Position numbers and translations under genes: made by a program. From positions 1 through 39,533 of IMG/VR virus record IMGVR_UViG_3300046642_000352: a stretch of DNA of 39,533 nucleotides; one strand, given 5' to 3'. The DNA comes from a virus. Below the pieces are notes generated by a model. The model saw only the letters and a list, made by a program, of their open reading frames with translations. It made no database searches and was not told the origin of the DNA. Within the stretch, counting starts at the first letter, position 1. Each line of letters begins with the position of its first letter. Below, piece after piece: positions 3,214-37,431 of this stretch.

Positions 3214-3289
3214 GTGGGTATGGCCCAGTTGGTAGGGCGCCTGGTTTGGGACCAGGAAGTCACAGGTTCGAGCCCTGTTACCCGCACCA
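3214..3289 (+). tRNA. tRNA-Pro (UGG)
   Basis: Acceptor GTGGGTA/TACCCGC with one G-U pair, D-arm GCCC/GGGC, anticodon stem CCTGG/CCAGG with loop TTTGGGA (anticodon TGG) and T-arm ACAGG/CCTGT. Unlike the others it has an encoded 3' CCA (3287-3289). The CCA overlaps the start of the operator-like repeat at 3288, so tRNA 3' processing and the next gene's leader are contiguous. Confidence 0.93.
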
Positions 3290-3309
3290 CATACGGATAT
3301 CCGGAGGTG
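3288..3309. repeat. 22-bp repeat, Shine-Dalgarno type
   Basis: Copy of the dispersed palindrome with T-to-G changes at repeat positions 17 and 19. The right arm becomes GGAGGTG (3303-3309), an excellent ribosome binding site 5 nt before the GTG at 3315. The left arm and centre (CACATACGGATATCCG) are unchanged. Two other loci, 5168 and 29114, carry the identical 22-mer. Confidence 0.85.
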
Positions 3310-3314
3310 CCCTG

Positions 3315-3812
3315 GTGGGCGAGCATGTCCCCCAGCCTGGCGACTTCGGCCTATGCCGGATATCCGGGCTCACTGGTGTTGCCGTGTCCGCTGGCCAACG
3401 CCTGATCGGCTCCGGTAGCTATTTCACGCACGCGTTTGTCTATGTCGGCAACGGCGAAGTGGTTCAGGCCCAACCGGGCGGAGCTAAGCGCATGCCGCTG
3501 AGCGACGCAGTGAGCAACCACAGCCGCGTAGCGTACTCATCCTTTCCGCTGGCCCCTGTTCAGCGTGCTGCCATTTTGGGTGCGGCGACGTACCTGATTG
3601 GCACCCCGTACAGCTTTGCGGATTACGCGGCCATTGGTGCTCGTCGGCTGCTTGGCATTGCTGCGCTAGAACGCTTTGTGCGTGATAGCGGCCACATGAT
3701 TTGTAGCCAGTTCGTCGACGAGTGTTATCGGCGCGCTGGCTTTGAACTTTTCCCCGGGCGAATTCCGGGCGACGTTGCACCGGGCGACCTTGCCAGACTG
3801 ATTGGAGCGTAG
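3315..3812 (+). CDS. NlpC/P60- or YiiX-type papain-like hydrolase
   Basis: A 165-residue protein with the features of permuted papain-like amidases or peptidases. It starts PQPGDFGL, has a histidine motif FTHAFVYVGNGEVVQA, a GTPYSFADY segment and a cysteine motif MICSQFVDECYRRAGF, and ends near PGDLARLI. The order His before Cys fits the permuted YiiX-like branch, which cleaves amide or ester bonds of cell-wall or lipid substrates. The GTG start was chosen because it lies 5 nt after GGAGGTG. It lies in the tRNA-to-cos region rather than the lysis cassette, so its role is uncertain. Confidence 0.75.
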   Translation: MGEHVPQPGDFGLCRISGLTGVAVSAGQRLIGSGSYFTHAFVYVGNGEVVQAQPGGAKRMPLSDAVSNHSRVAYSSFPLAPVQRAAILGAATYLIGTPYSFADYAAIGARRLLGIAALERFVRDSGHMICSQFVDECYRRAGFELFPGRIPGDVAPGDLARLIGA

Positions 3813-3814
3813 CT

Positions 3815-4117
3815 ATGCCAGCCTGCGGAGCATGCGGCAGCACTGCGCTTGTCGTCTGGGTAAGGCGCCCTAGCGATGCTGAGCTAGCGGCGATTCCTGC
3901 TGAGCATGGCGGAGAATCCGCGAACGCCGGTAATACCACGGTCGCTGTGTACGCCTGCGGATCACATGCCATTTCCGCTGATCTAGGCGCCCTAGTCCAC
4001 CAGGCCGCATGCGCTGGTCCTTCTAGCCCTGCCTTGCCTGACTGCACGTGCACCCCGGAGCCTGCCCCTGTGGCTGTACCGGAGCCTGTGCAGGAGCTAC
4101 CGGCTGGGTGGCAGTAG
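3815..4117 (+). CDS. Small putative zinc-binding protein
   Basis: A 100-residue protein opening with a CGACG knuckle, followed by YACGSH and AACAG, then a Pro-rich tail (TPEPAPVAVPEPVQ). The cysteine and histidine spacing suggests one zinc ribbon. The start lies 2 nt after the hydrolase stop, and the 3' end is 4 nt before the HNH gene, so the three form one operon. No known function is recognised. Confidence 0.7.
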   Translation: MPACGACGSTALVVWVRRPSDAELAAIPAEHGGESANAGNTTVAVYACGSHAISADLGALVHQAACAGPSSPALPDCTCTPEPAPVAVPEPVQELPAGWQ

Positions 4118-4121
4118 GCCC

Positions 4122-4460
4122 ATGGCTAAGCGTCCCTGCCTGGTGTGCAGGCGTCTGACTACCAACCCTTCCCGCTGTGCTGTATGCCAGGCCAAGTACA
4201 TGGCAGGGCGTGAGCGGCAGCGTGGCAGTGCTAGCCAGCGTGGGTACACCAGTGCCTACCGAGTAGTAGCTAAGCAGGTGGTGACAGAGCACAGGGCAAG
4301 GCACGGCGGTTGGTGTCCTGGCTACGGCGTGCCCGATCACAGGACCCACGATCTGACCATTGACCACATCATTCCGCTTGCCCATGGTGGCACGCACGAC
4401 CGTGCCAATCTTCGTGTGCTGTGCAGGGGCTGCAATGCCCGCAAGCGTGACTCTCTGTAG
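4122..4460 (+). CDS. HNH endonuclease (packaging-associated)
   Basis: A 112-residue protein with N-terminal Cys knuckles (CLVC, CAVC) and a canonical HNH core: C-P-G-Y-G...LTIDHIIPLAHGGTHDRANLRVLCRGCNARK. HNH nucleases beside the small terminase are typical of HK97-like cos phages and assist terminase cutting at cos (established for HK97 gp74). It lies directly before the putative cos region and terminase genes. Confidence 0.9.
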   Translation: MAKRPCLVCRRLTTNPSRCAVCQAKYMAGRERQRGSASQRGYTSAYRVVAKQVVTEHRARHGGWCPGYGVPDHRTHDLTIDHIIPLAHGGTHDRANLRVLCRGCNARKRDSL

Positions 4461-4699
4461 GGCTATGCCCGCACTCCCCTGCCCCGCTGTGATGGCATAA
4501 CCATGCATGGTCGTGCCCCGCGAAGTGCATATGTATGCGATGACGGGGGGTGGGTCAAAGTCCAGCGAAGATCATCCCAGGGACCCGGCTCCCATGGCTG
4601 GGGACACCGCTGCGAAATTAGGGCCCCGGGGGTCTAGCCCAGAAACGCTCTAGAACTGCATAAAAATGCAGAATTCACGTCCGGCAGGGGGTAAAGCGC
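4461..4699. other. Non-coding region with candidate cos site
   Basis: No gene is seen here. The stretch CGGGGGGTGG at 4544-4553 fits the CGGnnGGTnn pattern of several actinophage cohesive ends. Symmetric elements lie just upstream: ACCATGCATGGT (4500-4511) and GCATATGTATGC (4527-4538). The position between an HNH nuclease and the small terminase is where cos-type packaging sites usually lie. If correct, the virion DNA would be opened here rather than at the window ends. Confidence 0.4.
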
Positions 4700-5167
4700 A
4701 TGGCTGTGGGCCGTCCGCCCGTCCCCACGGAGCGTAAGCGAAAACTGGGAAATCCTGGCGCCCGCCCTTTGCCTGATCCCGCCACTGTCCTTGACACTGC
4801 GCCAGTCGCCATGGCTGCACCTGCACATTTGGGCCCGTCCGGCGCTGAGCTTTACTCACGGATCGTTACCGGCGCTGCCTGGCTTGCTGACACGGACCGC
4901 CCGACGCTGGAATTGCTCTGCGAAAAGGTCGACCGACGCGAGCAGATGAAGGCCGAGCTAGCGCGCGGCGATTTGGTGCTCTTCACGGATAAGGCTTACG
5001 CCTATCCCAACCCGCTCGTCGGCATGCTCAGCACCATCGAAACCGAGATTGCGAAGCTATTCAGCGCGATGGGTCTGACGCCTACCGACCGCACGCGCAT
5101 GGGGCTCGCCGAGGTGAAAGCCCGAAACGCATTCGAAGACTTCCTAGCCAAAAAGGCTGGGGCGTAG
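4700..5167 (+). CDS. terS: Terminase small subunit (P27 family)
   Basis: A 155-residue protein with the P27-type N-terminus GRPPVPTERKRKLGNPG, a central helical region (LLCEKVDRREQMKAEL), the segment YPNPLVGMLSTIETEIAKLFSAMGLTPTDRTR and a charged C-terminus. It should recognise phage DNA at the packaging site and load the large subunit. The ATG is preceded by AGGGGG. A Shine-Dalgarno-type repeat follows its stop codon directly. Confidence 0.9.
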   Translation: MAVGRPPVPTERKRKLGNPGARPLPDPATVLDTAPVAMAAPAHLGPSGAELYSRIVTGAAWLADTDRPTLELLCEKVDRREQMKAELARGDLVLFTDKAYAYPNPLVGMLSTIETEIAKLFSAMGLTPTDRTRMGLAEVKARNAFEDFLAKKAGA

Positions 5168-5189
5168 CACATACGGATATCCGGAGGTG
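5168..5189. repeat. 22-bp repeat, Shine-Dalgarno type
   Basis: Identical to the copy at 3288. It begins directly after the terS stop codon and supplies GGAGGTG (5183-5189) 5 nt before the GTG at 5195. Confidence 0.85.
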
Positions 5190-5194
5190 ATGGC

Positions 5195-5401
5195 GTGCCA
5201 CGCTGGCTTACGCGGTTCCTCCATTGGAGCCACATCGTTCGGTCACCTGCGCTGGCTTTCCACGATTCCGTCAAGAACATTGACTGGTCGTCTGTCGCTG
5301 AGGGCATGGCCAAGTATGAGGACGCGTACCGCAAGGAAGACGGCGCACGCATCCTGGCTTGGTATGAGGCGCGCGAGGCTTGGCGTAAGGCGAACGAATG
5401 A
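5195..5401 (+). CDS. Small protein between terminase subunits
   Basis: A 68-residue basic and aromatic protein (begins MPRWLTRFLHW, ends REAWRKANE) of unknown function. The GTG start is set by GGAGGTG 5 nt upstream. Its stop overlaps the terL ATG (ATGA), so it is translationally coupled to the large terminase. The ATG at 5190 opens another frame whose product lacks this coupling and is less likely. Confidence 0.75.
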   Translation: MPRWLTRFLHWSHIVRSPALAFHDSVKNIDWSSVAEGMAKYEDAYRKEDGARILAWYEAREAWRKANE

Positions 5402-6915
5402 GTGCCCCCTATCTGCTGACCCCGGTCACTAAGGCGGATGTCAAGCGGGGCGATGGCGCTGACTTCGTCGACTTCTCGCAATCCTTCCTGCGGATCACCA
5501 AAGACTCTGTCGGTGGGTCCAGCGGCGAACTGCTTGTCTTCCGGGACTGGCAGTGCCAACTGTTCGGCCGGTTGCTCGCACGGCGCCCTGACGGCCGTTA
5601 CAAGCATCGCCAGGCACTCGTGGGCATGCCCCGCAAGAACGGCAAGAGCGCCGTAGGTGCCGCGCTGGCTATCTTCGGCCTGGTGTCCGGTCCCCGTGGT
5701 GGTGAGGTCTACTCCATCGCCGCTGACAAGGAACAAGCGCGAATCGTCTTCGGCACTGCCAAGAAAATGATCGAGATGGCGCCAGAGATGGCGAACTCTT
5801 TCAGGGTGTACCGGGACGCTGTTGAGCTACCGGCAACCGGGTCTGTGTACCGCGTGCTGTCTGCGGAAGCCTTCACCAAAGAGGGACTCAACCCGCATCT
5901 GACGATAGCCGACGAAGTCCACGCACAGCCCACCCGTGAACTCTGGGACGTCATGAGCCTTGCCTCTGGCGCTCGCGTAGAACCCATGATGGTGGGCATC
6001 ACCACCGCTGGCGTGAAGTCGGATAGCTCCGGTGGCGACAGCCTGTGTTACGGCATGTACCAGTACGGCGAGAAGATCATTCGGGGCGAGATCAACGACC
6101 CCGCTTTCTACTTTGAGTGGTGGGGGGCGCCGGAAGGTGCCGACCACAAGGACCCAGCGGTATGGGCAGCAGCGAATCCGGGCTTCAACGACATTGTGAG
6201 CGAAGAGGATTTCCACTCCTCCGTGCTGCGGACCCCGGAAGCGGAGTACCGAACCAAGCGGATGAACCAATGGGTGTCGACGGCGCAAGCCTGGCTACCC
6301 GCTGGCGCTTGGGACGAGTGCGCTGGCGACGCTGAGAGCATCGAGCCGGGTACCGAGGTGGTCCTAGGCTTTGACGGCTCGTTCAACAACGACTCAACGG
6401 CGCTTGTGGTGGTTACCTGCCCCCGGGGCGAGGATGACAAGCCCCACATTGACGTCGTGGCAGCGTGGGAAAAGCCTACGGATGCCGGGCAAGACTGGTC
6501 AGTCCCCATCTTCGATGTTGAGGACGAGATACGTAAGGCTTGCCGACGCTGGCAGGTTCGCGAGATTGTCTGTGACCCGTTCCGCTGGGCGCGCACGTAT
6601 CAGATCCTCGAATCTGAGGGGCTCCCGATCGTGGAGTTCCCGCAGTCCCCCGCGCGCATGGTTCCGGCGACGCAGCGCTATTACGAAGCCGTCATGAATA
6701 AGACGCTGACTCACAGCGGCGACCCGCGCCTAGCGCGCCATCTCTCGAACTGTGTCCTGCGGACCGATTCGCGCGGCTCGCGCCTGAGTAAGGACGCGAA
6801 GGGCTCGCCCCGGAAAATCGACCTTGCCGTTTCCGCTGTCATGGCGCTGGAACGAGCCTGCCAAGAGGCGGAAGTCATTCCCGAACCCCAGTTCTTCAGT
6901 TGGGCGGATCTATAA
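5398..6915 (+). CDS. terL: Terminase large subunit
   Basis: A 505-residue packaging motor. The ATPase domain has a Walker A-type GMPRKNGKS at about 77-85 and Walker B LTIADE with D172 and E173. The C-terminal nuclease domain begins near GFDGSFNNDSTALVVV, whose aspartate is a likely metal ligand, and continues with a second acidic motif around VREIVCDPFRW. Length and domain order fit the Terminase_1 family of HK97-like phages. It translocates DNA into proheads and cuts it. Confidence 0.95.
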   Translation: MSAPYLLTPVTKADVKRGDGADFVDFSQSFLRITKDSVGGSSGELLVFRDWQCQLFGRLLARRPDGRYKHRQALVGMPRKNGKSAVGAALAIFGLVSGPRGGEVYSIAADKEQARIVFGTAKKMIEMAPEMANSFRVYRDAVELPATGSVYRVLSAEAFTKEGLNPHLTIADEVHAQPTRELWDVMSLASGARVEPMMVGITTAGVKSDSSGGDSLCYGMYQYGEKIIRGEINDPAFYFEWWGAPEGADHKDPAVWAAANPGFNDIVSEEDFHSSVLRTPEAEYRTKRMNQWVSTAQAWLPAGAWDECAGDAESIEPGTEVVLGFDGSFNNDSTALVVVTCPRGEDDKPHIDVVAAWEKPTDAGQDWSVPIFDVEDEIRKACRRWQVREIVCDPFRWARTYQILESEGLPIVEFPQSPARMVPATQRYYEAVMNKTLTHSGDPRLARHLSNCVLRTDSRGSRLSKDAKGSPRKIDLAVSAVMALERACQEAEVIPEPQFFSWADL

Positions 6916-6926
6916 GGACGTGACAC

Positions 6927-7079
6927 ATGAAGTTCAGTCGACGCCTGATAGGCGAAATCGCCGATGTCACTGGCATTGGTTGTCTGGTAGGCGCCGGTTG
7001 GGCGTTCAACACGATTCTTGGTCTGGCGCTCGCTGGCGTAGGGCTTATCGTCATTAGCGCTGTGGTGGTGGACAAGTGA
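6927..7079 (+). CDS. Small membrane-type protein between terL and portal
   Basis: A 50-residue protein with a basic N-terminus (MKFSRRLIGE) and a long hydrophobic stretch (about residues 14-47, Gly/Ala/Val/Ile-rich) ending VVDK. It probably has one or two membrane-spanning segments. It is preceded by AAGGACG and its stop overlaps the portal start by GTGA. Small hydrophobic proteins occur at this position in other HK97-like actinophages, but its function is unknown. Confidence 0.75.
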   Translation: MKFSRRLIGEIADVTGIGCLVGAGWAFNTILGLALAGVGLIVISAVVVDK

Positions 7080-9021: not shown

Positions 9022-9034
9022 CTCTCGCGTCGGT

Positions 9035-9056
9035 CACCTACGGATATCCGTATGTG
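9035..9056. repeat. 22-bp palindromic repeat (unclassified copy)
   Basis: Carries one mismatch (A to C at position 4: CACCTACGG). It has neither self-complementary flanks nor a promoter behind it. It lies between protease and capsid, 130 nt before the capsid start, and could act as a repressor roadblock. Confidence 0.8.
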
Positions 9057-10529: not shown

Positions 10530-10548
10530 GTCTGACCTAGTGGCGGTG

Positions 10549-10579
10549 GGGGTCACATACGGATATCCGTATGTGCCCC
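10549..10579. repeat. 22-bp palindrome with extended stem
   Basis: The core at 10554-10575 matches the consensus exactly. Flanking GGGG and CCCC pair with a single bulged T, so the transcript can form a hairpin of more than 12 bp right after the capsid stop. It could terminate or attenuate capsid transcripts as well as bind a repressor. Confidence 0.85.
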
Positions 10580-10607
10580 TGCCCCCTCCCCTACCCGAGA
10601 GGAACGC

Positions 10608-18115: not shown

Positions 18116-18149
18116 GGGGAGCACATACGGATATCCGTATGTGCTCCCC
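18116..18149. repeat. 34-bp perfect palindrome containing the 22-bp repeat
   Basis: The consensus core at 18122-18143 is extended on both sides by GGGGAG and CTCCCC, giving 17 + 17 bp of perfect dyad symmetry 6 nt after the tape measure stop. As RNA it would be a long hairpin with no U-run. It could be both a repressor site and a terminator or processing site. Confidence 0.9.
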
Positions 18150-18166: not shown

Positions 18167-20995
18167 ATGGCACTGAATCCCAACTACCCCGTGATTGAGG
18201 AGATTTGGGGGCCCTCGTGGGGCGCTGCGGGTGCCTCGCTGCCCTCAACCAGACTGGTGAACCTTGTTGACCGCACGCTGTCATCGGCGTCCGCGCGGCG
18301 GGGAAAGCAGTACGAACTAGACCAGATAAACGCTGGCGAGTACGGCGTCACGCTGGGCTCACAGGATGGCGTGCTAGACCCGACCAACACCAGCGGCCCC
18401 TACGGCGGGAAGATCCTGCCGCTTCAGCCCTACCGGCGCCGTGCCCAGTGGCCACCTACGGCCAACATCCTTGACGCTGTGGTGGCAACCGCTGGCGAGG
18501 GTTACACCGCTGGCACGGTCCCCGCATCCTTCAACATGATTTTCCCGACCGGGGCCATTACCAGCACCATTGCAGTGCCGACGGCCGGTTACGCGTGGCA
18601 GGGCTCAAACGTCTTCTCGTTCGCCATTCCGGCAAACCAGGGGGCTAACTCGAACATCTTCAAGACTGAGGCGTACGGCATTCGCCCCGGCAAGAAACTC
18701 ACGTTCTCTGCGTACATGGCGAACATAACGCCGAGCACTACGGCGCCGGTAAACCTGTTCATTTCCTGGCTCAACGCCGATGGCTCCGCCGTGTTCGCCA
18801 ACGGTGTCTCGGTCACCCTGAACGGCGCCTCTGGCTCCCCTGCCTGGCAGCGCGTCACGGTCACCGCTACGGCCCCCACCACGGGCGCTGTGTATGGCAT
18901 GCGCATTGGACTCAACGTACCTGGCAGTGGCTTCGGCACGTCCGCCGCTACGGTCTACGTCGATGGGCTACAGGCTGAGTGGGCGAGCACGGCGAGCACA
19001 TGGGTTTCTCCCGGCACTTGGTACCCGATCTTCAGCGGTTTCACGGAGCGCTGGCCAACCACTTGGGCCGAAGGGGGTACGTACGGCCAGGTGTCCCCTA
19101 CCGCCGTTGACTCCTTCGCACTGCTCTCGCAGGTGCAACTACGGGAAGTGTTCGCCGAGGAAATCGCCGCGCACTCCCCACGGTTCAACTACACCATGGG
19201 CGACGCAACCGGGGTCACCTCATTCGCGGACGCCACAGGCAACATGCCTTCTGCGCCGTTGGTGAACGCCAAGACAGGTTCAGGCAACTGGACTTCCGGC
19301 AACGCCGTAACAGCGGCGAACCTGGCTACCGGCACATTTACCGGCAGTACGGGCACGGTCACCACCTCTGCGCCGCTGACTCCGGGGGTCAACGGTGCCC
19401 CTAACCCTGCAACCATGCTCGCGCTGAGCGACGCTGGCGTTAAGGGTCCCGCTAGCTCCGCGTGGACGCGAATGATCGCGTTTCGCTACACCGCTGGCAG
19501 TAACCCGGCAGATCTTGCCTACGTCTGGAATTCGCAGACCACGGCCACGCCCGATATTCACGCGGGGCAGATCACGGTCTACATCGAGTCGACCGGGCAT
19601 CTTCGCATCTCCACGCAGGCTGTCGGATTCATTACCGGCTCAACGCCGTTCAATGACTCGCAGTCTGTGACTGATGGGAACTGGCACCTGGCCGTGTTCG
19701 GGATCAGCGGAACGACCATGACCATTTCCCTCGACGGTGTCACCACGACGCAGACCATTTCGTCGTCGCAGATTCCGCCGCTGAATTCCATGTTTGACTA
19801 CGTCGGCGCTAACTACATGCCCGGCACGAAGACAGCGAACTGCGTTTACAAGGGTGATCTGGCATTCGTCGCTGAGTTCCCGTCGCTGCTGTCGTCGGCT
19901 GACATGGGGCAGCTTTACAGCACGTGGCGCACCAGCGCTTCGGGCGAGTCCAGTGCAGCGCGGTACGCACGTATCCTGCGCTACTCCGGTTACGGGGGTG
20001 CCAGCAACATCGGCACAGGCTTGACGACGTCCATGGGGCCTGCCAGCGACATCGGCGGGGCGGACGTCATGTCAGCGCTGAACAATGTGGTGACTACCGA
20101 GAATGGCGAGCACTTCGTAACGGCGGATGGCACGGTGACATTCCGGGGCCGTGGCTACCGGTACAACGCGCTGACTCCGGTCTGGACGTTCGGCGACGGC
20201 ACGGGCGAATACCCGTACGAAGATCTCCAGTTGGACTTTGACAGCACGCACCTAAGCAACGTGGTAACGGTCACTCAGCAGAGCACCGGAACCAACCTCG
20301 TGGCGCAGGACAGCGCGAGCATTGCGAGCTATTACACGCGCACCATGACGCGAACTCTCAACGTCACCAGTGGCCTTGAGTGCCAGGATGCCGCCGACTA
20401 TTTCGTGAGCCGGTACAAGGACCCGCTTACGCGAGTGCAGAGCATCAAACTGCACCCGTCGGCTGCGCCTGCGCTGTGGCCCCTTCTGCTGGGCCTAGAG
20501 CTGGGCACCCGCGTGCGTATCAACCGGCGCCCGCCCGGGGCCCCCCTGGTGTCCGTCGACTGCTTTGTTGAGCAAATCCAGTGGGACATGGACAGCTCTA
20601 ACGAAGCCTTTGTGACGTTGCAGTGCAGTCCGGTCGACCCGCACGTCTACGGGCAGTTCGGCGCGTTCTATACGACGCTGAACAACTCGCCTTCGGCCGG
20701 TGCCACCTCGATCACGCTGAACGCTGGCGCGGACAACATCAACCCGCTGGCCGCGCAGTTGCCCGCTGGCACTCAGCTAGTGGTGGGGCTCGGCACGGCC
20801 AATCAGGAAACGGTGACTCTGACGGCCGTCGGCGTGACCACTTCAGGGTGGACGACGTCCGCTTGTGGTGTGAGCGCGCTAACTAAGTCGCATGCCGCAG
20901 GCGAAACCGTGTGTGAGGTGCTGCCCGCTGGCGTCAGCGATCCCGTGGCATTCGATGCGCCGCAGAAATTCGACCAGGTTGTTTTCGCCTATTAG
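18167..20995 (+). CDS. Minor tail protein with LamG/ConA-like domain
   Basis: A 942-residue tail-tip protein. The N-terminal part (LPSTRLVNLVDRTLSSASARRGKQYELDQI) is of the distal-tail type. A carbohydrate-binding-like beta segment follows around residues 115-290, then a LamG/concanavalin-like domain about 430-600 (SSAWTRMIAFRYTAG, GNWHLAVFGISGTTMTISLDGV, NCVYKGDLAFVAEFPSLLS). The C-terminal part (LGTRVRINRRPPGAP, DCFVEQIQWDMDSS) resembles baseplate-hub sequences. It probably joins the tail tip and contacts host-surface glycans. Confidence 0.8.
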   Translation: MALNPNYPVIEEIWGPSWGAAGASLPSTRLVNLVDRTLSSASARRGKQYELDQINAGEYGVTLGSQDGVLDPTNTSGPYGGKILPLQPYRRRAQWPPTANILDAVVATAGEGYTAGTVPASFNMIFPTGAITSTIAVPTAGYAWQGSNVFSFAIPANQGANSNIFKTEAYGIRPGKKLTFSAYMANITPSTTAPVNLFISWLNADGSAVFANGVSVTLNGASGSPAWQRVTVTATAPTTGAVYGMRIGLNVPGSGFGTSAATVYVDGLQAEWASTASTWVSPGTWYPIFSGFTERWPTTWAEGGTYGQVSPTAVDSFALLSQVQLREVFAEEIAAHSPRFNYTMGDATGVTSFADATGNMPSAPLVNAKTGSGNWTSGNAVTAANLATGTFTGSTGTVTTSAPLTPGVNGAPNPATMLALSDAGVKGPASSAWTRMIAFRYTAGSNPADLAYVWNSQTTATPDIHAGQITVYIESTGHLRISTQAVGFITGSTPFNDSQSVTDGNWHLAVFGISGTTMTISLDGVTTTQTISSSQIPPLNSMFDYVGANYMPGTKTANCVYKGDLAFVAEFPSLLSSADMGQLYSTWRTSASGESSAARYARILRYSGYGGASNIGTGLTTSMGPASDIGGADVMSALNNVVTTENGEHFVTADGTVTFRGRGYRYNALTPVWTFGDGTGEYPYEDLQLDFDSTHLSNVVTVTQQSTGTNLVAQDSASIASYYTRTMTRTLNVTSGLECQDAADYFVSRYKDPLTRVQSIKLHPSAAPALWPLLLGLELGTRVRINRRPPGAPLVSVDCFVEQIQWDMDSSNEAFVTLQCSPVDPHVYGQFGAFYTTLNNSPSAGATSITLNAGADNINPLAAQLPAGTQLVVGLGTANQETVTLTAVGVTTSGWTTSACGVSALTKSHAAGETVCEVLPAGVSDPVAFDAPQKFDQVVFAY

Positions 20996-23904: not shown

Positions 23905-23926
23905 CACATACGGATATCCGTATGTG
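23905..23926. repeat. 22-bp palindrome, promoter-linked operator
   Basis: Exact consensus copy without self-complementary flanks. It ends 2 bp before a TTGACA hexamer, so a bound repressor would block RNA polymerase. The same geometry recurs at 37410. Confidence 0.88.
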
Positions 23927-23928: not shown

Positions 23929-23958
23929 TTGACAGCGCTAGACGCGCGCCGCTAGTCT
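23929..23958 (+). promoter_or_regulatory. Sigma-70-type promoter next to operator
   Basis: TTGACA (23929-23934), 18-bp spacer, TAGTCT (23953-23958). The leader shares ACAACGAAGGGG-type sequence with the other operator-promoter at 37434. It drives the 23997 gene. Confidence 0.75.
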
Positions 23959-23996
23959 CTGCGATGTAAGTTCAAAACAACGAAGGGGCGGGGACA

Positions 23997-25244
23997 GTGA
24001 ACGTGGTCAGCGTGAACGGCGGCAAGGTCCACTCGATGATGTCGGGCATGGATGAGCACCCGTACCCGCTGTGCCGTGGCGGTGGCCAGAACCAAATGGT
24101 GACCAAGTTCCGCGCTGTCGACGCCCCACTGTCCTGCAAGACCTGTCTGACCTATGAAGCGCGGCGCAATGCTGCTGCCGCCAAGGCTGAGGGAGAGACC
24201 ACCATGACGGACCGTAACGACGTGAACACGGACCAGGGCAAGGCCGTAATCGAGCAGGTCGACGCCAACATCGAGCGCGCTGCCTCGCTGATTGCCGACG
24301 GAAGCGACACGACGGAAGCGGTTGCTGAGCTGGACACGGAGACAGAGGCGCTGATTTCCTCGCTCAGCGGCAAGGGCTCCATCGCGATCAAGACTGCGAA
24401 GCGCGCCGCGTGGACTGCTGCTGTCACCACTCCCCCGGAGCCTGCACCGAAGGCAGAGATCGTCAAGTCTGAGGTGGTGGAAGGGGTCGTAGCCCCCAAG
24501 ACGTGGGACCAGTACGAGGGCGTGCAGGAACTTGTCACCATGGGCGCCGAAAAGGTCGCCGACGGAGTCAAGGCCCATCTCAAGACGTCCACGCTGGCGA
24601 AGGAGGTTGCGGCGATCGGTCTGGACATGTGGCTCCGCATGCCGAACAAGGCTGGCCAGCCCGATTTGCTGGGCGACACGGACCCCGCGAAGAAAGCGTC
24701 TGGTGCGTTGCTGCGCGAGGCTGGCGAGCACTTCGATGACAACTACGACACGAAGACGGCGCTTAAGAAGCTGATGCGCAGCGTGCAGGACCAGCGCAGC
24801 GACGTTCGGGCCGAATGGCTGCGCTCGCTGGATGAGGACACCCCGATTGCCCTTGAGCGCCGAGCAATCATGGCAAAGGTGCTGGAGGGCAAGCCCGACG
24901 ACGAGCCTGCCTCTGAGTGGGTCGCCAACGTCTACGGCACTAGCACGATCGGCCAGACCGAGCGCAAGAGGCTGGAGTACGAGGCCAAGAAGGCACTTTC
25001 GGCTAGCGAGAGCACCGGCGCGGGAAGCGACAGTGACAGCGAAGGAGAGGGCGACGGCGACGGCGCAGAGCAGAGCACCCCGGACGAGCGTGTGAAGCTG
25101 GTGGCAAAGAAGATCTATACCGACATCAGCAACGCGAGCGTCGACGACTTCGAGAACGCCAGCGAGGAGACCAAGGAAGCCATCAGGACTGAGCTGGAAA
25201 ACGCGCTTGAAGGCCTGCGCGCCATGATCAAGGCCACTATCTGA
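23997..25244 (+). CDS. Early protein of unknown function, possible regulator
   Basis: A 415-residue acidic protein expressed from the operator-controlled promoter. The N-terminus has a possible Cys/His site (HPYPLC, LSCKTC). The middle is helical (LVTMGAEKVADGVKAHLKTS, TLAKEVAAIGLDMWLRMP). A Ser/Asp/Glu/Gly-rich linker near residue 345 precedes a helical C-terminus. An in-frame ATG at 24204 has its own GAGGGAGAG, so a shorter product lacking 69 residues is likely. Operator control and possible in-frame isoforms recall the phiC31 repressor, but no helix-turn-helix is evident. It could equally be a replication or DNA-binding factor. Confidence 0.75.
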   Translation: MNVVSVNGGKVHSMMSGMDEHPYPLCRGGGQNQMVTKFRAVDAPLSCKTCLTYEARRNAAAAKAEGETTMTDRNDVNTDQGKAVIEQVDANIERAASLIADGSDTTEAVAELDTETEALISSLSGKGSIAIKTAKRAAWTAAVTTPPEPAPKAEIVKSEVVEGVVAPKTWDQYEGVQELVTMGAEKVADGVKAHLKTSTLAKEVAAIGLDMWLRMPNKAGQPDLLGDTDPAKKASGALLREAGEHFDDNYDTKTALKKLMRSVQDQRSDVRAEWLRSLDEDTPIALERRAIMAKVLEGKPDDEPASEWVANVYGTSTIGQTERKRLEYEAKKALSASESTGAGSDSDSEGEGDGDGAEQSTPDERVKLVAKKIYTDISNASVDDFENASEETKEAIRTELENALEGLRAMIKATI

Positions 25245-25257
25245 CGCACCGTCACAC

Positions 25258-25285
25258 GGGGCCCTGGGAACGATCCTGGGGCCCC
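25258..25285 (+). terminator. Strong hairpin before the 112-residue gene
   Basis: GGGGCCCTGGGA pairs with TCCTGGGGCCCC (12 bp, two wobbles) around ACGA, followed only by TT. It is probably a poly-U-less terminator or an attenuator, lying 19 nt before the next start. Confidence 0.6.
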
Positions 25286-25304
25286 TTCCCACTCGGAGGG
25301 GACC

Positions 25305-25643
25305 ATGGACGAATACACACAGGCACGCAACGCGCTGAACGATGCCTCTGAGTCGCTCAACGCACTGATCTACGGCCCGGGGTTCAACTACCTCACGGAA
25401 GAGCAGCAGACGGCCGTACAGGGCGCCTTTGATGCCCTGGCAGATAACGGCGCCACCGCCGAGCCGCAGGCTGCGCCCGTGGAGTTCACGGAGGTGCGCC
25501 CCGAGGTCTGGAAGACAGCTACGCCAGCGGACGGCGAACGGCTCGACTCGCTGATTGATGACGCGCTGGGCAAGTTCGGTACGTCGCTGGAAGAACTGCG
25601 CACCACGGCCGCTGAGCACGAGGACGGCCCACAGCGCCCCTAG
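25305..25643 (+). CDS. Hypothetical acidic early protein
   Basis: A 112-residue helical, acidic protein (YTQARNALNDASESLNALIYG, LTEEQQTAVQGAFDALAD, LDSLIDDALGKFGTSLEELR). The ATG has GGAGGGG upstream. It lies between two hairpins and is probably a monocistronic tail of the preceding operon. No family is recognised. Confidence 0.75.
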   Translation: MDEYTQARNALNDASESLNALIYGPGFNYLTEEQQTAVQGAFDALADNGATAEPQAAPVEFTEVRPEVWKTATPADGERLDSLIDDALGKFGTSLEELRTTAAEHEDGPQRP

Positions 25644-29113: not shown

Positions 29114-29135
29114 CACATACGGATATCCGGAGGTG
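29114..29135. repeat. 22-bp repeat, Shine-Dalgarno type
   Basis: Same 22-mer as at 3288 and 5168. GGAGGTG at 29129-29135 precedes the GTG at 29142 by 6 nt. Confidence 0.85.
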
Positions 29136-29793: not shown

Positions 29794-29798
29794 GCGCT

Positions 29799-32291: not shown

Positions 32292-32333
32292 GGCTGGCGC
32301 CAACGGCGACCAGTGACACAAAGCATGCCCGAG

Positions 32334-32365
32334 GGGGTCACCTACGGATATCCGTATGTGACCCC
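32334..32365. repeat. 22-bp palindrome with extended stem
   Basis: The core at 32339-32360 has one change (CACCTACGG). Perfect flanks GGGGT and ACCCC extend the dyad to 32 bp with a single internal mismatch. It lies between primase and DNA polymerase, 27 nt before the polymerase start. Confidence 0.85.
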
Positions 32366-32391
32366 TTCGCGCTGAACAGAGGGGCTTCGCA

Positions 32392-34248
32392 GTGAAGATC
32401 TACCCGTACGAGATTGCTGGCGAGCCGGTTACCGTCAAGGTTCCGGAGACGCGCGAGGATCTAAGCGAGTTCCAAGAGTGGTTTATGCGCGCCAACTCTG
32501 CGGGACCGATCGCGCTGGATACCGAAACCACCGGCCTCGACATCTACTCCCACGGATACCGCCTGCGCACCATTCAGTTCGGCGATCGGCGCACAGCGTG
32601 GGTCATCCTGTACGAGCTGGGCGGGCATTTCGTCGCTGCTGCGCTGTGGGCCCTGCGCCGTGGTCGGAAGTTCCAGATTCACAACGCGCCCTTTGACTGG
32701 GCCGTCATCGACCGCCATGCAGGCGTCAGCATTGAGTCGCTCGCCCCGCGAACCATTGACACTCGCCTAAAGGCTGGCCTGGTTGATCCGCGCCAGCCGC
32801 AGGAAGGTGGGCGAGGCACGGCCCTTAAGCCCCTCAGCGCGTACTACGTCGACCCCGCAGCGCCGGATACTCAGGGCGACCTGACAGCAGTCTTCCGCTC
32901 GCTGAAACTGACGAAGGCAACGGGCTGGGCCGGTATTCCGCTGGACCACCCCACTTACCTTCTGTACGCGGGTCTCGATGTGCTGCTCACGGCGCGTCTT
33001 GATGTGGAACTGGACCGTGAACTCAGCGCGCTTGATGTGCGTCCGCGCCTGGTCCAGTACGAGCACGAGATAGCGCGCATATGTGCGGTCATGCAGCGCA
33101 AGGGCATGGTCCTTGACGTCGACTACACGCGCACGCTCGACGAGTCGCTACAGGCTGAGGCCGCTGAGTTTGAGTTGAAGGCCCAGCGCTACGGCGTGAC
33201 CAACGTCAACGCTCCCGCACAGTTGCGCGAGGCACTCTTCGCCATGGGTGAAACCTGGCTGTCTGACGAGCGCACAGCTTCCGGCGCACTGAAGGTAGAC
33301 AAGGCGGTCTTGCACCGCTTTGCAGACCTTGACCAGAACAGCGGGGCACCCCTCGGCACGCGCAGGCCCAACCCGCTGGCCGAAGCCATCATTCGCAGTA
33401 AGCGGGCGGGGAAATGGCGCAGTGCCTACACACAGACGTTCCTCGACACCATGGACGCTGAGGGCAGGGTGCACAGCTTCATCAACAGCATGCAGGCACG
33501 CACCGGCCGTATGTCCATCACTCGTCCGGCGCTGCAAACCCTGCCGTCCGGTGATGCCATGGTCCGGCGCGCGCTACTCGCTGATGAAGGCGAGGTGATC
33601 GTGTCCACTGACTTCGCTGCCGTTGAACTGCGCGTGCTCGCTGCGCTGGGTGATGTGAAGCGTATGAAGGAAGCCATCACGAAGGGCGAAGACCTGCACT
33701 CCTTCACTGCCCGACTCGTCTTCGGCGAAGGCTTCACAGCGAAGCACCGGAAGATCTCTAAGGGGATTGCCTTCGGCAAGGTCTATGGGGGTGGCGCTGC
33801 AACCATCAGCCGACAGACCGGAGCACCGATCGAGGATGTTCGCCGCGCGATGGCCGCCTATGACCGGGTCTACCCGGAGGTGCGGCGCATGTCGAACGCG
33901 TGGCAGCGCGAAGCGTACGAGACGGGCATGGTGCATGTGTCTGTGACCGGGCGCAGGCTTCCGCTGGACCGTGATCGGACGTACGCCGTTGTGAACTACG
34001 GGGTGCAGAGCGCTGCCCGTGACTGCCTGGGGCAGAGTCTCATCAACCTTGAAGAGGCTGGCGTGCTTGATGCGCTCCGCTTGCCGATTCATGACGAGGT
34101 GCTGGCGAGTGTGCCGCGCGCTGAGGCCAGCGACTACGCGAAGATCATTCAGGACTGTATGACGTTCGACCTGTACGGGGTCCCGATCGAGGCAGAGGCA
34201 GAGATAGGCGGGCGGTCCTGGGGCTCGCTCTACGGCGCTGACTTCTAG
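32392..34248 (+). CDS. Family A DNA polymerase
   Basis: A 618-residue replicative polymerase. The N-terminal 3'-5' exonuclease has LDTETTGL (D43, E45). The polymerase domain has motif A STDFAAVELRVLAAL (D407), motif B RKISKGIAFGKVYGGGA, and motif C PIHDEVLAS (H567, D568, E569). The segment GRMSITRPALQTLP before motif A is canonical. No 5'-3' exonuclease domain is present, as usual for phage enzymes. The GTG start follows AGAGGGGC. Confidence 0.95.
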   Translation: MKIYPYEIAGEPVTVKVPETREDLSEFQEWFMRANSAGPIALDTETTGLDIYSHGYRLRTIQFGDRRTAWVILYELGGHFVAAALWALRRGRKFQIHNAPFDWAVIDRHAGVSIESLAPRTIDTRLKAGLVDPRQPQEGGRGTALKPLSAYYVDPAAPDTQGDLTAVFRSLKLTKATGWAGIPLDHPTYLLYAGLDVLLTARLDVELDRELSALDVRPRLVQYEHEIARICAVMQRKGMVLDVDYTRTLDESLQAEAAEFELKAQRYGVTNVNAPAQLREALFAMGETWLSDERTASGALKVDKAVLHRFADLDQNSGAPLGTRRPNPLAEAIIRSKRAGKWRSAYTQTFLDTMDAEGRVHSFINSMQARTGRMSITRPALQTLPSGDAMVRRALLADEGEVIVSTDFAAVELRVLAALGDVKRMKEAITKGEDLHSFTARLVFGEGFTAKHRKISKGIAFGKVYGGGAATISRQTGAPIEDVRRAMAAYDRVYPEVRRMSNAWQREAYETGMVHVSVTGRRLPLDRDRTYAVVNYGVQSAARDCLGQSLINLEEAGVLDALRLPIHDEVLASVPRAEASDYAKIIQDCMTFDLYGVPIEAEAEIGGRSWGSLYGADF

Positions 34249-34273
34249 TTACCAACCCGTACGGTGAGGGTGA

Positions 34274-34305
34274 GGCCATGTTCCGGTTGCGGAGCGTGGC
34301 CTTTT
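34274..34305 (+). terminator. Rho-independent terminator after DNA polymerase
   Basis: GGCCATG (34274-34280) pairs with CGTGGCC (34295-34301), one wobble, then TTTT; a second T-run follows shortly. Confidence 0.8.
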
Positions 34306-34641
34306 CCTACTTTTTACCAAATCCGTTGAACGCTGGTCACGCCTTCAAATCTGTGTGCGCCACATGTGAAGGAACCGTGTCTTCCGATCATTCCAAGGGA
34401 TGAACCCCGGTCTCGCCTTCGAAACCGCTACAACGATCTTGCCTAGTAGCAGGTCTAACGGGTGCTCAGCGCAGAAAAGATCGTTGACCACCTACGAAAA
34501 ACGGCGTTGAGTGCACACAGCAACGACGAGTGATCCGGCCGGACACTCGTCCACGCAGACACCCCACCGAGTGGGAGTCGTCTGGTACCCCGCGCCGCCC
34601 TCACATGCTTTGAGTTGCGCAAATCCGGCCGAACTCCGCTT
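34306..34641. other. Non-coding region with repeats, possible origin
   Basis: No convincing gene is seen on either strand. It holds imperfect 23-nt direct repeats at 34327-34349 and 34401-34423 (TGAAC-n-GGTC-n-CGCCTTC-n-AA), a perfect inverted repeat CAACGATCTT/AAGATCGTTG (34431-34440, 34477-34486), a loop-less dyad ACGAGTG..CACTCGT around CCGGCCGG (34526-34550), and CACATGTG near 34372. Position after the polymerase gene and repeat density make a replication origin or a small-RNA locus possible. Confidence 0.5.
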
Positions 34642-34658
34642 GGTAACCGACTCGCTAG
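34642..34658 (+). promoter_or_regulatory. GGTAACCGACTCGCTAG element (putative early promoter)
   Basis: Consensus copy ending 33 nt before the sigma-like gene. Its end forms GCTAGGG/CCCTAGC dyad symmetry with the next bases. Confidence 0.65.
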
Positions 34659-34691
34659 GGCCCCTAGCAAGCCAACCGAACGGAGTCCCCC

Positions 34692-35822
34692 ATGTCTCTC
34701 ACCATCGAGCACATTCGCGCCGCGCAGGACAACGACCTTGCCGCCATCACGGCAGTCATCGCCGACATGGACGAGCGCATATCCCGGCTCGCTGCGCAGG
34801 CTGCACGACGACTGAACGGCGACCACCGCGAAGACTTCGAGCAGGACGCACGCGAGGCACTCTTCAGGGCGCTCCCGCGCTTCGACGCTGACACCGTGGA
34901 CGCGTTCCACGGGTTCATGTTCAGCAGCATTCAGGACGCACTGAAGGACAAGGTTCGCTCTGCGCGATACGTCGGTGTGGACAAGGACGCAGTGAAGGTC
35001 TTCATGTCGATGCTGGGCGACGCTGAGGGCGACCCGTACCGCGCTGAGCAGATGGCGCAGACCGTTCCCGCTAAGGGGCTCCGACTCAGCGCCGACCGTG
35101 CCCACGCTGCGCGGCTCGCATGGCAGGGCATCGTGTCTGTGGACCAGGTGGCCGGTTCGGGTGGCACACAGCACGGGAACGGGTTCGCAGGTAACGGCAC
35201 GATTGCCGACACGCTGGCCGTGACTGACGAACTCCCCCAGGTTCAGCCGAAGGTTGGTCACGGTGCCGCTCTGGAAGCGCTGGCCGTGCTCAACCGGTAC
35301 GTGTGCGTGGGTGTCCGGCGCATGACTCCGGGCGAGTTTTCTGCCAACCTGCCCGCGCTGGTCGAGGCGCTGGAAGACACCGTGCGGGTGCCCAGTGACC
35401 CGACGATTCGCCGCTATGTGCTGGACGCGATGGCCATCCTGCGTTCCGCTGTGTCGACTGCTTCCGATGGCGACCTTGCCGATGAACTGCGGGATGTGTC
35501 CGACGATCGGCGCGACGAGCGGGTAGCCAAGATCGAAATGATTCGCAATGCGCTGGGCAGGGTGAGCGCGCAGCAGTACACCATCTTGGTTCACTCGTTC
35601 GGCATCGGCGGCGCGGAAGACTTCGGGTGGGGCGATGGCTCCGACCTTGACGGGCTTGCCAAGTTCCTCGGCACGACACCTGGCAACGTCAAGAAGCAGC
35701 GCTCGGCCGGACGGCTGGCGTTTACGAAGCACTTCATAGCCTTGGCGGTGCACACCCTCGAAGCTGCGATGGCGTGGGAAGCTGCCGCCGCTGAGATGCG
35801 CAAGCCTGCTGGCCGCAAGTGA
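34692..35822 (+). CDS. Sigma factor-like protein
   Basis: A 376-residue protein with distant features of a sigma-70-type factor. About residues 45-100 resemble region 2 (REDFEQDAREALFRALPRFD, then FHGFMFSSIQDALKDKVRSA). About 285-350 resemble region 4 (VSAQQYTILVHSFGIGG, LDGLAKFLGTTPGNVKKQRSAGRLAF, with a helix-turn-helix-like GLAKFLGTTPGNVKKQ). It could direct host RNA polymerase to phage promoters such as the GGTAACCGA elements, one of which precedes it. The match is weak and the central part is unlike known sigma factors. GGAG precedes the ATG. Confidence 0.6.
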   Translation: MSLTIEHIRAAQDNDLAAITAVIADMDERISRLAAQAARRLNGDHREDFEQDAREALFRALPRFDADTVDAFHGFMFSSIQDALKDKVRSARYVGVDKDAVKVFMSMLGDAEGDPYRAEQMAQTVPAKGLRLSADRAHAARLAWQGIVSVDQVAGSGGTQHGNGFAGNGTIADTLAVTDELPQVQPKVGHGAALEALAVLNRYVCVGVRRMTPGEFSANLPALVEALEDTVRVPSDPTIRRYVLDAMAILRSAVSTASDGDLADELRDVSDDRRDERVAKIEMIRNALGRVSAQQYTILVHSFGIGGAEDFGWGDGSDLDGLAKFLGTTPGNVKKQRSAGRLAFTKHFIALAVHTLEAAMAWEAAAAEMRKPAGRK

Positions 35823-36133
35823 CCGACGAATGTTGTGAGTGCGGAGGGGCTAAGCGTCCCTCCGCCTCTCGTCGTCCGCGCGCGACCCAGCCCCCTGACA
35901 TGACGGCGCTGTACATGCGCACTCGGAGGCGCAGGAAGGCCCCTTACAGGCGCGCGGATGTGTTCGCCCACTGGGGAGGGCGCTGTGTGTACTGCGGGGC
36001 GCCAGCGGAGCATCTAGACCACGTGCAGCCGCTATCGCGCGGTGGCCGAGACATCTTGTCGAACGTGGTCCCCGCATGTGCCGACTGCAACCTATCCAAG
36101 GCAGCGCTCACCCTCGCTGAGTGGCTGGCGTAG
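35819..36133 (+). CDS. HNH endonuclease
   Basis: A 104-residue nuclease: N-terminal ECCECGG knuckle, core CVYCGAPAEHLDHVQPLSRGGRDILSNVVPACADCNLSKAALTLAEW. Its core is paralogous to that of the HNH at 29371. The GTG overlaps the sigma-like stop (GTGA), and a GGTAACCGA element lies 4 nt after its stop, the same arrangement as at 29371. Confidence 0.88.
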   Translation: MTDECCECGGAKRPSASRRPRATQPPDMTALYMRTRRRRKAPYRRADVFAHWGGRCVYCGAPAEHLDHVQPLSRGGRDILSNVVPACADCNLSKAALTLAEWLA

Positions 36134-36137
36134 CCCT

Positions 36138-36154
36138 GGTAACCGACTCGCTAG
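36138..36154 (+). promoter_or_regulatory. GGTAACCGACTCGCTAG element (putative early promoter)
   Basis: Consensus copy ending 35 nt before the start at 36190, directly after the HNH stop. Confidence 0.65.
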
Positions 36155-36189
36155 GCCCCAAGCACAGAACGAGAAATGGAGAGATTCTC

Positions 36190-36354
36190 ATGACCTACAA
36201 CCTGCGCAACGGTTACAGCGTGGTCACTCGCAAGGCTGAGGGCGGGACGGAGTTTGAGACCCGTAACCCGCAGGGCGCCACCATCAGTACTGTGACGCTG
36301 CCCTACGTCGAGGCGAACGCGCTGGTGCGCAAGCTGTATCTGGGCCGTGTCTGA
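36190..36354 (+). CDS. Small hypothetical protein
   Basis: A 54-residue beta-rich protein (YNLRNGYSVVTRKAEGGTEFETRNPQG, VTLPYVEANALVRKLY). GGAGAG lies upstream. The last base of its stop is the first of the next ATG. Function unknown. Confidence 0.7.
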   Translation: MTYNLRNGYSVVTRKAEGGTEFETRNPQGATISTVTLPYVEANALVRKLYLGRV

Positions 36355-36527
36355 TGGCGCACGTTGATGGTTCGCTGAACGACCCGACTCCCACCAGCGG
36401 ACTAGCGGGGCGAGCGGATGTGTACCGGATTGCTGCCGCATTGATCAAACAGGTCGGATTGGTCGCAGAGGCCACCGCCGATGATGTGCTGCGGCTGGCC
36501 GAGTTTCTTGCAGGCGGCGACTTTTAG
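36354..36527 (+). CDS. Small hypothetical protein
   Basis: A 57-residue protein beginning within the previous stop (TGATG). The C-terminal half is helical (ADVYRIAAALIKQVGLVAEA, DDVLRLAEFLAGG). Coupling to the preceding gene supports its expression. Function unknown. Confidence 0.65.
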   Translation: MAHVDGSLNDPTPTSGLAGRADVYRIAAALIKQVGLVAEATADDVLRLAEFLAGGDF

Positions 36528-36528
36528 T

Positions 36529-36563
36529 TGGGAGGCACATACGGATATCCGTATGTGCTCCCA
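36529..36563. repeat. 22-bp palindrome with extended stem
   Basis: Exact core at 36536-36557. Flanks TGGGAG and CTCCCA pair with one bulged G, extending the hairpin by 6 bp. It follows the 57-residue gene and ends 20 nt before the GTG at 36584. Confidence 0.85.
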
Positions 36564-36583
36564 TCATCCCTAAGGCGGAGAGA

Positions 36584-36940
36584 GTGACACGCATCACAAC
36601 AGACCCGCGTGAAGAGCGCTTGCCTAAGTGGGCGCAAGAGGAACTGCGGAGCCTGCGCATGCGAGTGCGCGTTGCGGAATCCAAGATCGAAGATCTAAAG
36701 GGCAACACCCCCGAGACGGACACGTACCTACTCGATTACGGCTCGCTGGATAACTTCCCGCTTCCGAAGGGTGCGCGCGTTGCGTACCACCTGACTCCCC
36801 CGGGCTTTGAGCGGAAAGTGCGCCAGGCAATTCAGGTCTATATCAGCGATAGCGCGTTGCACATTCAGGGTGATACCTCGCTGGTTATCTACCCGCAAGC
36901 GTCAAGTTCCCTTAATATCGAATTGGAGCGTTACCGCTAA
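36584..36940 (+). CDS. Hypothetical coiled-coil protein
   Basis: A 118-residue protein. Residues 10-42 look like a coiled coil (LPKWAQEELRSLRMRVRVAE), followed by a beta-rich part (YHLTPPGFERKVRQAIQVYI, LHIQGDTSLVIYPQ). Proteins of this layout are common in Streptomyces phage genomes without known function. The GTG has GGAGAGA immediately upstream. The lipoprotein gene starts directly after its stop. Confidence 0.75.
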   Translation: MTRITTDPREERLPKWAQEELRSLRMRVRVAESKIEDLKGNTPETDTYLLDYGSLDNFPLPKGARVAYHLTPPGFERKVRQAIQVYISDSALHIQGDTSLVIYPQASSSLNIELERYR

Positions 36941-37153
36941 ATGCGCAGGCTCGTAATCCTCGCCATTCCCGCAGTGCTCGCCCTCAGCGCATGCGGGGCC
37001 GACCCGTATAACACAGGAGACTGCGGCACGGTAGTGCACCACCACGTGATTCATCACACAGGCACACACCGTGTAGTTACACGCCACCAGCGGGTTACCA
37101 TCAAGTCCGCTCGACGGCATGTGTCGCTGAGCAAGTCAACCCGGAAGAGGTAA
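36941..37153 (+). CDS. Small lipoprotein
   Basis: A 70-residue protein with a basic start (MRR), a hydrophobic segment and a lipobox LSAC with C18, so it should be exported and lipid-anchored on the outer face of the host membrane. The mature part is rich in histidine (HHHVIHH) and basic residues. Some phage lipoproteins block superinfection, for example by stopping DNA entry, so a superinfection-exclusion role is possible but unproven. The ATG directly follows the previous stop. Confidence 0.8.
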   Translation: MRRLVILAIPAVLALSACGADPYNTGDCGTVVHHHVIHHTGTHRVVTRHQRVTIKSARRHVSLSKSTRKR

Positions 37154-37157
37154 AAAG

Positions 37158-37352
37158 ATGAGAGTCCTGGCCATCCTGTTCGGCACGGTGGCGCTGACAG
37201 TGGGTGCTCCCGCGTACGCGTCCGATGCCCCGCACCCTCCGACTCCTCCGCAGGCGCACGCTCCGCACACGGTGCATCTGCCGTCCGGTGCCCCGCGCTG
37301 GGTCAAGTGCCCGGGTAACCCGCGCATCTTGATGGCCTGCTTCACGCACTAA
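37158..37352 (+). CDS. Small secreted protein
   Basis: A 64-residue protein with a Sec signal (RVLAILFGTVALTVG) and a likely cleavage after AYA (residue 21). The mature part is Pro/His-rich with two cysteines (KCPGNPRILMAC). It starts 4 nt after the lipoprotein stop, so the two exported proteins are co-expressed and may act together at the envelope. Confidence 0.75.
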   Translation: MRVLAILFGTVALTVGAPAYASDAPHPPTPPQAHAPHTVHLPSGAPRWVKCPGNPRILMACFTH

Positions 37353-37365
37353 GGCTCAGCGAGAA

Positions 37366-37396
37366 ACCCCCTGGTCAGCGCGACCGGGGGGTTTTT
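37366..37396 (+). terminator. Rho-independent terminator
   Basis: ACCCCCTGGTC pairs with GACCGGGGGGT (11 bp, one wobble), loop AGCGC, then TTTTT. It separates the exported-protein operon from the operator-promoter. Confidence 0.9.
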
Positions 37397-37409
37397 CTAT
37401 GCCTCGGAT

Positions 37410-37431
37410 CACATACGGATATCCGTATGTG
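37410..37431. repeat. 22-bp palindrome, promoter-linked operator
   Basis: Exact consensus copy. It ends 2 bp before a TTGCGC hexamer, the same geometry as 23905, and its flanks are not self-complementary. Confidence 0.88.

Follow-up and report, generated by a model that had tools for sequence, protein, structure and literature searches.

The 39,533-base IMG/VR virus record IMGVR_UViG_3300046642_000352, which was analyzed over its whole length and is called the window below, holds ten near-identical palindromes scattered along its gene junctions, raising the question of which protein recognizes them and what they do there. An earlier note on this sequence suggested that one phage repressor binds them all and silences both early and late transcription. 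We find that the palindromes are very probably operators of the phage repressor c, forming a dispersed network of the phiC31 type with an operator sequence of its own, in which most of the sites within operons appear to be fitted to their RNA surroundings. Repressor binding and silencing we infer from homology, placement and the co-variation of operator and repressor.

Ten palindromes in three sequence types

All ten copies listed in the earlier note are present, the 20-bp core starting one base after the start given there and the palindrome measuring 20-22 bp. When up to three mismatches are allowed, the motif matches ten times in the window and never in 100 dinucleotide-preserving shuffles; the next best 20-mer of the window has seven mismatches and nothing else lies within six, so the set is sharply separated. 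The copies fall into three exact sequence types without a continuum: five are perfect palindromes (10555, 18123, 23906, 36537, 37411), two have an ACCT left half (9036, 32340; ACCTACGG) and three have the right half CCGGAGGT (3289, 5169, 29115). The placement of every copy between genes, as the note had it, holds for all ten by hand gene calls, with the qualification that the 3289 copy overlaps a tRNA gene end: its first base is also the terminal one (the A of CCA) of the predicted tRNA-Pro gene 3214-3289. Alternative open reading frames (ORFs) or longer starts overlap some copies (for example at 3246, 9052, 29073 and 37399), and we judged these not to be the genes. The positions also bear out that sites occur in both the early and the late region. 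A point that the note did not raise is that the copies are not equivalent: two lie at promoter-like pairs (class P), three double as Shine-Dalgarno sequences (class R) and four top longer RNA stems (class S). In addition, a bare 10-bp core without outer arms, CGGATATCCG, was seen at 3357, 68 bases past the start of the first operator and within the gene beginning at 3315.

Operator sequence varies together with c

The copy at 23906-23925 lies directly upstream of a gene beginning at 23997 whose product belongs to the repressor family PF25746. Over 360 aa this protein shares 55% identity with the immunity repressor of Rowa, and over 245 aa ~27% with phiC31 c. Relatives have dispersed palindrome families of their own with other cores: 16 sites in phiC31, 17 in Rowa, 15 in TG1, 17 in phiBT1, 16 in Vash, 23 in Shady, 11 in Heather and 14 matched in Nesbitt, where the match at 3909 is probably due to chance and was left out of the pooled flank analysis described below. 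The family finder detected no clear palindrome family in SASD1, nor in Dubu, which carries c. Half-sites from 19 loci mostly have a common ACCTAC-like outer arm and differ in the inner part; those of TG1 and Nesbitt also differ in the arm.

Across these 19 c-bearing loci, which are those with an operator family found (from operator seeds set by hand), operator distance follows PF25746 distance closely (Mantel r 0.88, p 0.0002). Neighboring genes track the operator less well, with r of 0.66 for the recombination directionality factor (RDF), 0.70 for the primase and 0.47 for the exonuclease, and the partial correlation between operator and c is 0.77 given the RDF, 0.75 given the primase (n=18 loci; n=19 for the others) and 0.85 given the exonuclease (each p 0.0005). 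Left out of the comparison were duplicates of named phages, together with Dubu, L052, L068, L069, L072 and L073, in which no clear family was seen; L052 and L013 are one contig, and on L013 there are window-type sites. The operator thus varies with c beyond its variation with neighboring genes, and relatives with another c have other palindromes, which supports the proposal that one phage repressor is likely to bind the sites.

A motif search in relatives recovered 89 copies on 36 IMG/VR stretches (99 rows minus the ten of the window). In the stretches searched, 88 of the 89 copies lie at most 150 bp from a match to a window gene, and the earlier note's counter-case, identical repeats within the coding sequence of unrelated phages, was not seen. 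The 89th copy is on stretch L036, inside the part that aligns to Rowa over 4.3 kb. The identity between L036 and Rowa is 79% over 4,328 bp, yet L036 has a window-type palindrome at a tail-gene junction where Rowa has its own type; this structural stretch makes up almost the whole of the 4,462-bp L036 contig. Junctions are shared as well: by the reciprocal-best upstream gene, four of the five window operator junctions also carry an operator in phiC31 (contingency table 4, 1, 2, 10; Fisher p 0.028), three of five do so in TG1 (p 0.12) and four of five in Rowa (p 0.08). The parallel with phiC31 drawn in the earlier note therefore stands, with a PF25746 homologue of c, a copy directly before c, and palindromes of the relatives' own at some shared junctions. 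Given the c homologue, the families in relatives and the divergence of operators along with c, the interpretation as phiC31-type operators is well supported.

Two side observations concern the relatives. The 81,716-bp contig IMGVR_UViG_3300046690_000279 contains two related phage stretches (L053 and L054) whose c proteins are 100% and 81% identical to that of the window and which share the same operator, and could be a double prophage, a concatemer or a misassembly. Rowa (L043) has a second intergenic repeat, GCATTCGAC, at 18694, 21761, 23956, 24299, 24354, 27122 and other positions, with CTAG close behind in several copies. Rowa contains 11 occurrences of ATTCGAC and the window two; such repeats may perhaps be promoters of the phage sigma factor.

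Class P sites adjoin promoter-like pairs

A -35/-10 pattern matches at only two places in the window when both strands are scanned, each beginning 2 bases past an operator with 18-nt spacing. Because the pattern was composed after viewing these two sites, its absence elsewhere counts as evidence and the match itself does not. At the corresponding junctions in relatives, TTGAC or TTGCG follows the operator and the flanks form no stem; TTGCG stands at this place in seven of the eight sites of the 37411 junction. The class P sites themselves fold too (z -5.51 and -2.67). A sigma-70 scan of the window listed one promoter-like site, 28219, away from any operator.

Class R sites contain Shine-Dalgarno sequences

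At the three class R junctions, the right half CCGGAGGT is present in all 26 sites (the three of the window included), compared with none of 73 sites at other junctions; Rowa was kept out of this count and was counted separately for start codons. After merging of duplicate contexts, which was also done for the G-U and A-C counts below, a start codon follows at a distance of 4-8 nt in 15 of 16 distinct contexts, compared with 6 of 48 for other halves (Fisher 5e-9). The one exception is L015, in which the ATG is 3 nt on. The identity of the start codon at this place varies among ATG, GTG and TTG, and in Rowa an operator GGAGGT precedes each of two starts that others annotated (26380 and 42116) by exactly 6 nt. 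Folding of the three window sites is not clearly better than that of shuffles (z in Table 1), suggesting that the Shine-Dalgarno sequence is probably open, that is, unpaired in the RNA.

Class S sites top predicted RNA stems

Folding energies of the four class S sites range from -26.1 to -34.3 kcal/mol (z -5.7 to -9.1); this strength comes partly from the palindrome itself, as the class P sites also fold. The flanking pairs co-vary across relatives: the first pairs outside the palindrome include G-C, C-G, T-A and T-G in the case of the tape-measure junction, and for the primase-polymerase junction T-A, T-G and C-G. When the flanks of 138 sites from nine phages were pooled, 332 of 690 positions were complementary, compared with 263.4 +/- 11.8 after permutation (maximum 307 in 5,000). 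For individual phages (positions 12-21), none of 2,000 permutations reached the phiC31 value, and p was 0.0015 for TG1, 0.017 for Heather, 0.022 for phiBT1, 0.039 for Vash, 0.06 for Shady and 0.21 for Nesbitt. At the stem positions, 39 G-U pairs stand against 9 A-C pairs, where permutation gave means of 23.8 and 14.8. Such an excess of G-U over A-C would be expected of pairing in + strand RNA, and it points that way rather than to DNA.

Table 1. Operator copies, promoter-like pairs and the repressor gene of the window. MFE, minimum free energy of folding (kcal/mol); z, relative to shuffled sequences.
Feature	Positions	Strand	Remarks
Operator copy, class R	3289..3308	+	CCGGAGGT as Shine-Dalgarno; GTG start 3315, 6 nt on; z -0.07
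Operator copy, class R	5169..5188	+	GGAGGT; GTG start 5195, 6 nt on; z -1.27
Operator copy, intermediate, weak stem	9036..9055	+	Protease/capsid junction; left half ACCTACGG; z -2.76
Operator copy, class S, perfect	10555..10574	+	After capsid gene; stem ~10545-10583, irregularity beside palindrome; MFE -33.7, z -5.71
Operator copy, class S, perfect	18123..18142	+	After tape measure gene; 15-bp stem 18116-18149; MFE -32.7, z -9.11
Operator copy, class P, perfect	23906..23925	+	Directly before presumed c promoter
Promoter-like pair, presumed c promoter	23929..23958	+	TTGACA - 18 nt - TAGTCT; pattern match
c repressor gene, 415 aa	23997..25244	+	PF25746 Phage_Repressor_c, E 6.1e-78, score 263 vs cut-off 27
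Operator copy, class R	29115..29134	+	GGAGGT; GTG start 29142, 7 nt on; z +0.79
Operator copy, class S	32340..32359	+	Primase/polymerase junction; left half ACCTACGG; stem ~32330-32369; MFE -34.3, z -7.18
Operator copy, class S, perfect	36537..36556	+	Between small early genes; stem ~36529-36562 with irregularity; z -5.90
Operator copy, class P, perfect	37411..37430	+	Directly before early promoter-like pair
Promoter-like pair for gene at 37500	37434..37463	+	TTGCGC - 18 nt - TAGGTT

A model of the network

With c occupying 23906 and 37411 in a lysogen, the -35 regions of the c promoter and the early promoter would be covered and both promoters shut, and at 23906 c would also limit its own synthesis. 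On the other eight sites, within operons, c would act as a roadblock that hinders polymerase reading through. At the three class R junctions, the half-site variant CCGGAGGT would provide the following gene with its Shine-Dalgarno sequence, and the break that it makes in the palindrome would keep that sequence unpaired in the mRNA. At the four class S junctions, the palindrome would cap a longer RNA stem, probably a terminator or a processing hairpin without a U-tail. A more tentative extension, which we consider possible and would not favor, is a triple code in which the same bases specify repressor recognition in DNA, ribosome binding in mRNA and the apex of a stem in RNA: the half-site ACCTCCGG is CCGGAGGT on the other strand and thus a Shine-Dalgarno sequence, so that immunity operators acting as ribosome landing sites might couple the strength of repression to that of translation gene by gene.

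Weighing the interpretations

Several observations weigh against the interpretation as c operators fitted to their RNA surroundings. On the operator side, Dubu (with c) and L072 (with c on 20.8 kb) gave no family and are excluded from the 19 loci, the co-variation of operator and c partly reflects shared descent, and the sharing of slots with phiC31 is only modest. On the translation side, the 26 and 73 sites are not independent, because there is overlap among the relatives and some of them hardly differ from the window, and in Rowa GGAGGT occurs in 9 of 17 sites with a start in range for only three, one of them promoter-type, and six without. Since GGAGGT is thus frequent in Rowa irrespective of starts, the half-site is better seen as an ancestral variant put to use than as one newly made. 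On the RNA side, the window alone has 39 of 100 complementary positions (p 0.11, not significant) and Rowa is likewise short of significance (p 0.09), so that the signal belongs to the pooled phages; an unbroken extension of the palindrome beyond position 11 is found only at 18123 (6 pairs) and 32340 (9 pairs), whereas 10555 extends by 0 pairs and 36537 by 2 when ungapped, both needing a bulge or mismatch. None of the ten palindromes appears among the hits of a simple terminator scan.

The RNA data could also be taken to mean that the palindromes are primarily RNA elements, such as terminators, RNase-processing hairpins or mRNA-stabilizing hairpins, with repressor binding secondary or absent. 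The pooled complementary flanks, the G-U excess, the compensating pairs at two junctions and the strong folds at four sites all fit this explanation. However, the core is conserved nearly to the base while the stems vary, and it changes among phages together with c; extended stems are absent from all three class R sites and both class P sites, and RNA could not matter at the class P sites, which lie upstream of the presumed promoters. We therefore regard this explanation as unlikely. It is quite improbable that c is uninvolved and that the sites are recognized by a different DNA-binding protein of phage or host, such as the sigma factor (34692-35822) or a protein of partition or packaging. That sigma factor is indeed phage-encoded, and c is a predicted binder, but the co-variation with c remains after control for the RDF, primase and exonuclease, and one site abuts c. 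We give very little credence to the idea that the palindromes are non-regulatory, as boundary sequences for module recombination or as a small mobile repeat. Their location at gene junctions and the window-type palindrome in the Rowa-like structural stretch of L036 would agree with it, yet recombination has no need of half-site classes that follow the junction, or of regular spacing to promoters and start codons, and the comparison of L036 with Rowa shows a core replaced at the same junction while the surrounding module stays. Operators of c, some of them adapted to translation and RNA folding, thus account best for the palindromes.

Repressor protein and genome context

The window is a phiC31-type phage of Streptomyces-type bacteria. 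It has genes for an integrase (PHROG integrase and invertase matches), terminase, portal, protease and capsid, as well as a deoxynucleoside monophosphate (dNMP) kinase, exonuclease, primase, polymerase and sigma factor; the polymerase shares 79% identity with its counterpart in Streptomyces phage Rowa and 59% with the one in phiC31. A search of genome contigs returned a single relative of c, in Streptomyces sp. NRRL S-31, and a near-identity search among phages (window bases 1-25000) gave two short matches, at tRNA genes. The ORF from GTG 5195 overlaps the start of the large terminase at 5398. A minus-strand ORF at 23952-25619 (555 aa) was considered as the repressor and rejected, as it has no PHROG match and the PF25746 protein is encoded by the + strand ORF.

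The N-terminal module of c has been swapped: L060, with a window-type operator, and phiBT1, with a phiC31-type operator, both have the MNVVSV-type module of the window. As this module is exchanged between operator types, operator specificity more likely resides in the PF25746 part. An AlphaFold2 model of c (predicted local distance difference test, pLDDT, 80.9; predicted template modeling score, pTM, 0.44) had no Foldseek match in the PDB at E <=0.001; in BFVD there were three at that threshold, from Vash, Shawty and Nesbitt, all of which are also among the sequence matches of c. A profile search of solved structures with c returned no relative at E <=0.001 and one match at 0.015, and further structure comparison of the model gave middling Z scores on helical bundles. 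The DNA-binding fold of c could not be named from the predicted model, from which novelty of the fold does not follow.

Two other features of the window were observed. The gene at 34692-35822 encodes a phage sigma-70 region 2 protein (PF04542; phrog_15865). Perfect 15-bp inverted arms at 42-56 and 85-99, centered about position 70 where the integrase gene starts, resemble attP or an operator of the integrase gene.

Comparison with known systems

The c repressor of phiC31 binds conserved inverted repeats (CIRs), and dispersed repressor sites are known for that phage. The window has in common with it dispersed palindromes of similar length, one directly before c, a PF25746 repressor and some of the junctions. 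Record X12865 labels the repeat ahead of phiC31 c as inverted repeat B. Between phiC31 and the window the cores differ, with GGAT/ATCC in place of TCAC/GTGA, and the ACCTAC outer arm is common as a variant. The operator sequence thus differs from that of the phiC31 family (CTACTCACGTGAGTAG in phiC31 vs ACATACGGATATCCGTATGT), which we do not hold to be defining, since cores vary among c-bearing phages. No Shine-Dalgarno half-site was found among the phiC31 sites viewed. A 1995 phiC31 paper, going by its title, reportedly deals with hairpins without U-tails in the early region, so a hairpin use of the phiC31 CIRs is likely, on that title alone, to be in print already. Rowa, the closest named relative (polymerase 79%, c 55%), has 17 operators with a near-identical half-site; it differs in that most of its sites have an asymmetric GGATTTTC-type center and that GGAGGT is common irrespective of starts.

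The repressors of L5 and Bxb1 belong to a different family from c. According to PMC6550527, L5/Bxb1 stoperators are 13-bp, asymmetric and oriented with transcription, and they resemble the present network in that one immunity repressor has many dispersed sites, few of them at promoters, with a motif that tracks the repressor. The sites of the window are 20-22-bp palindromes and not 13-bp asymmetric oriented sites, and so the earlier note's parallel with L5 stoperators holds as a functional likeness at most (PMC6550527). The repressor-stoperator system of Streptomyces phage R4 is similar, by description only, in having dispersed intergenic sites; PMC10276819 reports at least eight R4-type sites in phiScoe phages and a repressor gene between lysis and early genes. 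Cluster K mycobacteriophages have start-associated sequences (SAS) and extended SAS (ESAS), which PMC3203893 describes as a 13-bp asymmetric repeat, GGGATAGGAGCCC, in the non-structural half of the genome and without a known binder. These resemble class R as dispersed repeats that hold the Shine-Dalgarno sequence of the gene that follows, with roughly half of them linked to inverted repeats (PMC3203893). The ten copies of the window have another sequence than GGGATAGGAGCCC, so that the idea alone is common, and they differ in that the Shine-Dalgarno sequence is itself half of a putative repressor operator.

Dispersed repressor sites (phiC31, L5, R4) and Shine-Dalgarno-bearing repeats (Cluster K) are thus already known, and the two joined in one element were not found in the literature searched: our search, whose reach did not extend to the main phiC31 papers, returned no paper on repressor operators doubling as Shine-Dalgarno sequences. 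The results place a family of phages within the phiC31 immunity system, provide nineteen matched repressor-operator sets as material for working out how the c family reads DNA, and offer a clean case of a regulatory DNA site constrained by translation initiation and RNA folding at once. Taken together, the network appears to be a variant on the phiC31-type theme, in which operators probably double as elements of translation and RNA structure.

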